This document shows, piece by piece, positions 18,038-48,068 of a stretch of DNA of 64,000 nucleotides; the stretch's first letter is position 1; the number at the start of each line of letters is the position of its first letter. The position numbers and the translations under genes are program-made. The stretch comes from Alcanivorax jadensis T9 (GTDB lineage: Bacteria > Pseudomonadota > Gammaproteobacteria > Pseudomonadales > Alcanivoracaceae), in NCBI RefSeq assembly GCF_000756655.1, contig NZ_ARXU01000004.1:62001-126000 (forward strand). Direction: 5' to 3'. The notes beneath the pieces were generated by a model, which ran no database searches, was not told where the DNA came from, and saw only the letters and a list, made by a program, of their open reading frames with translations.

Positions 18038-18376
18038 ATGCAAGATTCAGCGATTCTCGACGATGAGGTCGTTACAGAACTACAGGATGTAATGGGCCAG
18101 GATTTCTCCATGTTGGTCGATTCCTTTAAGCGGGATGGCGAGCAACGTCTCCAGACACTGGCGTCCGCGTATACGGCGGGCGACCAGGAAACCCTGCGCC
18201 GCCAAGCGCACAGCTTCAAGGGCAGCAGCGGCAATCTGGGTGCGGTGCGGGTTTTCGAGCTGTGCATGCAGCTGGAGAGTCTGGCTCGTGAAGGCGAGTT
18301 GGGGCAGGTTTCCGATTTGCTGACTCGGCTGCGCGATGCCTTCGACCAGGCCTGTGATGCCTTGCGTCAGATCTGA
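18038..18376 (+). CDS. Stand-alone Hpt (histidine phosphotransfer) domain protein
   Basis: 112 residues, all one four-helix Hpt domain. The phosphorylated histidine lies in AHSFKGSSGNLGA, the canonical H-x-x-K-G-S/A-S motif. It has no kinase or receiver domain, so it must relay phosphate between partners encoded elsewhere. Start at 18038 (MQDSAILDDE), with GGAG five bases before the ATG. It lies ~280 bp before the GacA box of the RsmZ-like sRNA gene. HptB-type proteins feed into Gac/Rsm control in Pseudomonas, so a link is tempting but unproven. Confidence 0.88.
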   Translation: MQDSAILDDEVVTELQDVMGQDFSMLVDSFKRDGEQRLQTLASAYTAGDQETLRRQAHSFKGSSGNLGAVRVFELCMQLESLAREGELGQVSDLLTRLRDAFDQACDALRQI

Positions 18377-18657: not shown

Positions 18658-18677
18658 TTGTAAGAGATCTCTTACAA
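18658..18677. promoter_or_regulatory. GacA box (upstream activating sequence)
   Basis: TTGTAAGAGATCTCTTACAA, a perfect 20-bp palindrome that contains TGTAAG-N6-CTTACA, the consensus for the response regulator GacA. It is centred about 178 bp before the predicted start of the RsmZ-like RNA. The linker is strongly AT-rich. Distance and linker both match the known rsmY/rsmZ promoters. Confidence 0.88.
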
Positions 18678-18833
18678 AGCTGTAGGAAAAAGCAGTCTTT
18701 TTCGGCTGATTTCGGCTGTTTTGAAGCGACAAAATAAAGGTAAATTATTGATTTTAAATAGTTTTATTTTTTTTGGGTGGTTTTTGGGCAGACTTTTAAT
18801 ATTTATTTTACCCAAACGGCCTGGAGCCGTTGA

Positions 18834-18839
18834 TATAGT
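18834..18839 (+). promoter_or_regulatory. -10 box of the RsmZ-like RNA promoter
   Basis: TATAGT, with no good -35 hexamer at 16-18 bp. A weak -35 fits a promoter that depends on an activator such as GacA. Confidence 0.55.
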
Positions 18840-18845
18840 GGATTC

Positions 18846-18962
18846 GTGTTCAGGGATATGGGCACAAGGATAAGCAAGGACAGCACACAAGGATGTTGCG
18901 GTGAGCGCAAAAGGGTCAGGATGACTCGACGCAAAAAGGGCGGCAGGATGCCGCCCTTTTTC
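18846..18962 (+). ncRNA. rsmZ: RsmZ-like regulatory sRNA (CsrA/RsmA sponge)
   Basis: About 117 nt, with six GGA motifs at 18854, 18868, 18878, 18891, 18919 and 18946: AGGGA, AAGGA three times, CAGGA twice. GGA repeats in loops and single strands are how RsmZ/RsmY/CsrB RNAs bind and sequester RsmA/CsrA. The last one sits in the loop of the terminator hairpin. Upstream are a GacA box and a weak promoter. The neighbour is fdxA, as for rsmZ in Pseudomonas. The 5' end is predicted only from the -10 box. An ORF can be read across it, but it continues over fdxA and is not credible. Confidence 0.85.
18933..18961. terminator. Terminator of RsmZ-like RNA, also facing fdxA
   Basis: AAAAAGGGCGGC-AGGAT-GCCGCCCTTTTT: a 12-bp perfect arm with A- and T-runs on both sides, so it can stop the sRNA from the left and fdxA from the right. 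Confidence 0.92.
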
Positions 18963-19023: not shown

Positions 19024-19359
19024 TTAGCCTTCCCATTGTTGAACCAGCTTCTCGCGTTTGTTGGGCACACCGTCCCACTCTTCCGCATCGTCCGGTGCAT
19101 CTTTCATTTCGGTAATGTTCGGCCACTTCTCGGCCAGGTCCGCATTGATCTCCAGGAATTCCTGCTCGCCTTCTGGCAGCTCATCCTCGGAGAAAATGGC
19201 GTTAACCGGGCACTCCGGCTCACACAGTGCACAGTCAATACACTCGTCCGGGTGGATAACCAGGAAGTTGGGGCCTTCGTAGAAACAGTCTACCGGGCAT
19301 ACTTCTACACAATCGGTGTGTTTGCAGTTAATGCAGTTCTCACCTACTACGAACGTCAT
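19024..19359 (-). CDS. fdxA: Ferredoxin FdxA (7Fe-8S type)
   Basis: 111 residues. The N-terminal half has [17 protein letters not shown] and then [16 protein letters not shown], the cysteine spacing of a [3Fe-4S][4Fe-4S] ferredoxin of the Azotobacter FdI/FdxA class. The acidic C-terminal extension ([11 protein letters not shown]) is also typical. It is a small cytoplasmic electron carrier. In Pseudomonas fdxA lies between mutS and rsmZ; here the same order is kept. The gene reads toward the sRNA and shares its terminator. Confidence 0.95.
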
Positions 19360-47674: not shown

Positions 47675-47879
47675 TACTGCCAGGTAGGTACGGGGCGACG
47701 ACCGGTTGGTCTCGCCCCCCTTCACGGCGAGACTTACGAATACGCTTCAGGCATACTACCGCCCCCGTGCCAGGGGTGGGTAAATGGTCCCGCACCAAGG
47801 AGTCGTCAAGGACGGCAACCCGCGAGCCTCAGGTACGGCATGCGCTCACGGAAATTGAAGGACCCCAGGAGGGATCATT

Positions 47880-48068
47880 ATGTTAATTCTTACGCGTCGA
47901 GTTGGTGAGACCCTGATGGTAGGTGATGAAGTCACTGTGACTGTCCTGGGTGTAAAAGGTAACCAGGTTCGTATCGGTGTGAATGCACCGAAAGAGGTTG
48001 CCGTGCATCGGGAAGAAATCTACCAGCGAATTCAGCACGAAAAATCATCAGACGGTGAGTCTGCCTGA
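47880..48068 (+). CDS. csrA: Carbon storage regulator CsrA/RsmA
   Basis: 62 residues. [20 protein letters not shown] and [10 protein letters not shown] are the RNA-binding strands, including the key Arg near residue 44. It represses or stabilises mRNAs by binding GGA motifs near ribosome sites, and is itself sequestered by RsmZ/CsrB RNAs; a candidate is at 18846. AGGAGG lies before the ATG, and the leader 47680-47879 is long enough for its own promoter. Confidence 0.97.

Follow-up and report, generated by a model that had tools for sequence, protein, structure and literature searches.

A probable rsmZ gene with a conserved csrB/rsmZ-type promoter beside fdxA in Alcanivorax jadensis T9

Between a gene for an orphan HPt-domain protein (hpt) and the ferredoxin gene fdxA, the DNA of A. 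jadensis T9 carries a GacA/UvrY box, a further half-site, an IHF-like site in an AT-rich linker, an extended -10 promoter element and a GGA-rich stretch that ends in an intrinsic terminator (Table 1). These elements lie in the 64,000-nucleotide stretch that was analysed, hereafter the window, which also holds csrA.

Table 1. Features of the rsmZ locus and of csrA, with positions counted from the first letter of the window
Feature	Position	Strand	Basis
Gene for an orphan HPt-domain protein, preceding the RNA	18038..18376	+	PF01627, 6e-19
GacA/UvrY box, perfect palindrome TGTAAG-N6-CTTACA (TGTAAGAGATCTCTTACA)	18659..18676	.	sequence match and family conservation
Third half-site TGTAGG, 22 bp between its start and that of the box	18681..18686	+	family and Pseudomonas comparison
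IHF-like site within the AT-rich linker, matching WATCAANNNNTTR perfectly	18741..18753	-	9 of 9 positions
Extended -10 promoter element TTGATATAGT	18830..18839	+	sequence; -10 hexamer TATAGT at 18834
RsmZ-type small RNA (CsrR2 ortholog), 117 nt, six GGA	18846..18962	+	both ends predicted
Near-symmetrical intrinsic terminator hairpin with a GGA in the loop, where RNA and fdxA converge	18933..18961	.	fold and sequence
Ferredoxin gene fdxA, convergent to the RNA and used as synteny anchor	19024..19359	-	NF045490 over cut-off
csrA leader with six GGA motifs	47799..47874	+	motif count
csrA, presumed target of the RNA	47880..48068	+	profile matches; only CsrA gene found in the genome

An earlier note on this DNA had counted six GGA motifs in the 117-nt region, and all of them are found there, at 18854, 18868, 18878, 18891, 18919 and 18946. 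Their number by itself says little, being reached by 24% of base shuffles and by about 1% of the 111-nt stretches of the window, while the density of [AC][AG]GGA at the RNA is the highest in the window (6), the csrA leader coming next (5). The RNA folds more stably than its shuffles (z -3.9), and we judge this to be due mainly to the terminator. In the consensus structure all six GGA lie outside the helices, in keeping with the several loop or single-stranded GGA motifs of RsmZ/PrrB, whereas the minimum-energy fold of the single sequence pairs the third and leaves five of the six unpaired. Across the Alcanivoracaceae, the RNA carries six GGA in 26 of 43 genomes and seven in the other 17. GGA-rich intergenic DNA that happens to precede a terminator could account for such a stretch by chance, and both the unexceptional GGA count and the tendency of terminators to produce false Rfam matches would fit this explanation. 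It is contradicted by family-wide conservation, covariation and synteny, and we give it a negligible probability. The GGA count is ordinary; conservation of the locus is not, and it is this that raises it above chance.

Indeed, fdxA is present in all 46 family genomes and the box adjoins it in 45 of them. Among 51 fdxA matches, four distant second copies were omitted and 44 of the remaining 47 loci were parsed automatically; the box lies 318-441 bp ahead of the fdxA stop in 43 of these 44, and two genomes scanned by hand (G045 and G031, loci L097 and L099) add a box and a third half-site each and stand outside the RNA alignment. A second fdxA copy in G045 (L098) has no good box. In the family only G030 (86% complete) lacks both box and RNA at this position; tRNA genes are seen there by eye, and hpt is absent. 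Of 44 family loci, 41 have hpt next to the RNA, two of the three misses having only about 600 bp of flank; none of 80 named fdxA loci of other bacteria has it. The RNA was aligned in 43 family genomes, and covariation was assessed on the 39 distinct RNAs that are left when four identical ones are dropped. The consensus comprises 22 pairs in four helices, with 98.8% of the alignment cells paired and a covariation score of 0.111; five of the 22 pairs change on both sides, in 20 cells, and one of the four helices shows no double change. Four of five covariation measures are reached by none of 500 shuffles, which ignore relatedness, and every slid version scores lower; the fifth, further pair types, is unexceptional (reached by 50 of 500). 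The secondary structure is conserved, as is characteristic of RsmZ/PrrB.

A search of the own genome with the family model returns one strong locus, at 128.6 bits with the next at 27.5, and no strong second Rsm RNA. Across the order, the model matches at E 0.01 or better in 123 of 341 genomes; the 15 family genomes in this set score 104-133 bits at rsmZ, and the best match outside the family reaches 35.3 bits. The next order-wide match, with 37.7 bits in a family genome (G023), was rejected as a terminator. The box was sought over the full length of 19 loci, 15 from outside the family and four weak ones of the own genome; 18 have none and one has a poor match.

The earlier note had placed rsmZ beside fdxA in Pseudomonas and had read the present RNA as its ortholog. 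Of the 80 named fdxA loci, 40 were scanned with Rfam and all 80 with the family model. The RsmZ/PrrB model RF00166 exceeds its cut-off in 17 of 20 Pseudomonas-type loci, always convergent with and adjoining fdxA and thus on the same side and in the same orientation as here, and in none of the 20 others. At these 17 loci the box start precedes the RNA start by 170-192 nt, compared with 187 nt in A. jadensis; the Pseudomonas boxes match 10-12 of 12 positions. The family model in turn recovers 14 of the 17 Rfam-confirmed RNAs at the same place, weakly (14.4-23.4 bits), and misses three. All 14 agree at the 3' end, where the terminator lies, and 10 also at the 5' end, the other four being short there by 19-20 nt. 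As each Pseudomonas match is weak, the evidence lies in the agreement of place. Over the 80 loci the model gives 37 matches at E ≤1, of which 23 face fdxA convergently and 14 lie on the opposite strand. The best of them (34.2 bits; L151:3842-3951, Halomonas sp. M20) shares the strand of fdxA, from which it lies about 1 kb downstream, is by eye GGA-rich with a terminator, and is likely another CsrA-sponge RNA.

Rfam itself does not supply the proof. The RsmZ covariance search that had been suggested as a check yields 26.2 bits at the locus, below the 44-bit gathering cut-off, and RF00166 exceeds this cut-off in none of the 46 family genomes. The score was rejected as proof of RsmZ because a false match, the pnp terminator of the same genome, outscores the locus with 28.2 bits. 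The RsmY model, suggested alongside, likewise gives no RF00195 match over cut-off in the 46 family genomes; the six best-ranked sub-cut-off loci were fetched and turned out by eye to be terminators with no good box upstream. The orthology is supported by the convergent position directly downstream of fdxA, by covariation and by the box distance.

The RNA itself is already known. It was reported by dRNA-seq as CsrR2 in the sister species Alcanivorax dieselolei B-5, a transcript with its own promoter, hpt and fdx as neighbours and homologs in all Alcanivorax species, and was likened to rsmZ (PMC9788540). Gac has no occurrence in the main text of that article, where Gac control is not stated, and we recognised no other work on CsrR2 among titles and abstract openings. 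Its authors also proposed, as a second function, an antisense action on the fdxA mRNA (PMC9788540), and the convergent arrangement of RNA and fdxA, here and in Pseudomonas, would suit an RNA acting mainly as an antisense regulator. The predicted RNA end, however, falls about 60 nt short of the fdxA stop codon, so that the two transcripts should overlap no further than the shared terminator unless read-through occurs, and the stretch between the RNA end and the stop varies by eye among genomes. We consider antisense regulation very improbable as the main role and retain the sequestration of CsrA.

As for the promoter, the perfect TGTAAG-N6-CTTACA palindrome is present, one base later than the start at 18658 that had been given, and the -10 element is borne out within an extended -10. 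The centre of the box lies 178.5 bp ahead of the predicted RNA start. In a scan of the 64-kb window at up to two mismatches, the palindrome is the sole match, itself with none; 0.76 matches per window are expected by chance at this threshold and 56 of 100 shuffles contain one. The 3.63-Mb genome holds 16 box-type sites at up to one mismatch, compared with 4 for a reversed control pattern, and two of the 16 are perfect. The second perfect one (C10:45573) has ORFs nearby and, by eye, no adjoining GGA-rich RNA. A distinct observation concerns TGTAGGATATGGCTTACA, of which the genome has five dispersed copies (L003, L004, L005, L007 and L015), each with a different downstream sequence and four with a TTGATATA- or CTGATATA-type -10-like element about 20 bp downstream; these copies look like promoters with a GacA-type box near the -10 element.

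The spacing of the promoter elements is nearly constant in the family. The box start is 173-177 bp from the -10 in 35 of 43 promoters and 163-165 bp in five, three being unscored. In 43 of 45 family promoters (41 of 43 plus both of those added by hand), a third half-site, [TC]GTA[AG]G, follows with 22 or 23 bp between the start of the box and its own; in the rest of the family linkers, 3 of 5332 positions carry the same pattern. The third half-site is found in all 17 Pseudomonas rsmZ promoters and in none of the 30 rsmY promoters examined. The AT-rich linker matches WATCAANNNNTTR, which we take to be the IHF site consensus. Among the 43 family promoters, 37 have an IHF-like site that scores at least 8 of 9, placed at either of two distances, compared with 20% of shuffled linkers, and 14 of the 17 Pseudomonas rsmZ promoters have one of 8 or 9 of 9, a raw count since the shuffle control covers the family linkers only. 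The best-scoring site begins between -106 and -108 in 14 of these 17, and at -105 in A. jadensis. In the five short-spaced family promoters, the IHF-like site is 71-72 rather than 81-83 bp from the box start with the third half-site still at 22, so that about one helical turn is missing between these two sites. A third half-site of rsmZ is described neither in the titles and abstract openings covered nor in the covered parts of PMC7911923, PMC2375449, PMC8041468 and PMC9159945. What the present analysis adds is the promoter architecture, made of box, third half-site and IHF-like site as at E. coli csrB.

Across the order, the triple motif formed by box and third half-site occurs at 39 sites in 35 of 341 genomes, compared with one site for the reversed control. 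Fifteen are the family rsmZ promoters, and 16 of the other 24 were inspected. The 16 comprise two upstream of GGA-rich stretches adjoining fdxA, eight before csrA and six with neither setting. The two former, both in the f29 family (L274 and L275), have up to 12 and 7 GGA motifs in 120 nt and are likely further Rsm RNAs. The f27 family has the motif start 72-80 bp ahead of csrA in all eight loci examined (L276-L283), where an extended dyad in some may mark a hairpin instead of a GacA site.

With regard to the circuit, the earlier note had announced a complete Gac/Rsm module in the window. The box, the RNA and csrA, the latter at 47880 as stated, are there; gacA and gacS lie elsewhere in the genome. 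A GacA-type regulator is encoded beside uvrC (C1:327428-328063; 304.5 bits, cut-off 280), and the GacS-like kinase is a 937-aa hybrid kinase whose best family is BarA, although its 766 bits remain below the BarA cut-off of 890. The genome thus encodes GacS, GacA and CsrA, the kinase with the reservation of its score, and the genus has been described as having gacS, gacA, ladS and retS (PMC7366521). The GGA-rich leader makes autoregulation of csrA by CsrA possible. With a single Rsm RNA and a single CsrA found in the genome, the circuit is simpler than that of Pseudomonas.

The RNA could also be a CsrA sponge whose box is inactive or serves another NarL/FixJ-type regulator, expression being constitutive or set by other inputs. 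The level of CsrR2 is indeed constant between hexadecane and acetate (PMC9788540), and two genomes, G036 (92% complete) and G041 (64% complete), keep the box without an over-cut-off GacA match, the use of the box by GacA being itself predicted from the letters. Against this stand the near-constant distances among the three sites (box, third half-site and IHF-like site) in Pseudomonas as well as in the family, the over-cut-off GacA in 43 of 46 family genomes, and G030, which lacks box and RNA at fdxA and has only a sub-cut-off GacA-type match (227.9 bits). The case of G030 is not a clean co-loss, because G036 and G041, as well as the two of 46 genomes without a CsrA match (G044 and G045), keep the box; these four are all incomplete (64-92%). 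We regard control independent of GacA as improbable.

Positions 18659-18962 are very probably an rsmZ gene, whose product would be a GacA-activated RsmZ ortholog that sequesters CsrA. Judging from homologous systems, the RNA would be transcribed in this strain under the control of GacA and IHF. Phosphorylated GacA would bind the palindrome about 180 bp upstream, probably along with the third half-site, and an IHF-induced bend in the AT-rich linker would bring it to RNA polymerase at the extended -10 promoter. The 117-nt RNA would then expose five to six GGA sites and bind CsrA, and this capture would free the CsrA-repressed mRNAs as its targets. This reading assigns CsrR2, an RNA of oil-degrading bacteria, to a Gac/Rsm circuit with testable promoter elements. 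A tie between carbon or wax storage and Gac signalling is speculation. More tentatively, and with rather less than even confidence, we propose that the promoters of Gac-activated RNAs divide into two groups. Those of a distal class, to which csrB and rsmZ belong, would combine a box near -180 with an IHF bend and with a third half-site that begins two helical turns after the start of the box; those of a proximal class, represented by rsmY, would have no site but the box. In the distal class the extra half-site might be occupied by a second dimer of GacA or by a third subunit, and in this family the adjacent orphan HPt protein may feed the same relay. If this is true, the distal class could show a steeper response to phosphorylated GacA.

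Taken as a whole, the RNA is a well-supported, if ordinary, ortholog of RsmZ, and its promoter is conserved and of the csrB/rsmZ type. With CsrR2 of A. dieselolei B-5 it shares the order hpt, RNA, fdx, an own promoter, six GGA and a proposed role as CsrA sponge (PMC9788540); the two are equated by synteny rather than letter by letter, and the present analysis contributes the GacA box and the promoter architecture. Like Pseudomonas RsmZ/PrrB (RF00166), it is convergent at fdxA and has a GacA box and an IHF-like site at about the same distance, a third half-site, GGA motifs and a terminator, but it scores below the Rfam cut-off, is about 15 nt shorter and has hpt upstream; in P. brassicacearum, an rsmZ enhancer has been placed in the rpoS coding region (PMC7911923). 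Pseudomonas RsmY (RF00195) shares the GacA box and a GGA-rich RNA and differs in the absence of the third half-site and in its box near -76, good and at -75 to -79 in 24 of the 30 loci and weak or displaced in six; six of these 30 loci score below the RsmY cut-off. The likeness to csrB of E. coli and Salmonella is one of promoters only (repeat, extra half-site and IHF site). The E. coli csrB promoter has an 18-nt inverted repeat centred at -183/-182 and an extra TGTAGGAGA 5 bp downstream, and depends on IHF, with an IHF site between repeat and promoter (PMC4682653). A specific target for mutation is offered by the third half-site, which rsmZ has both in A. jadensis and in Pseudomonas, which has been described at E. 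coli csrB, and which the rsmY promoters examined lack.
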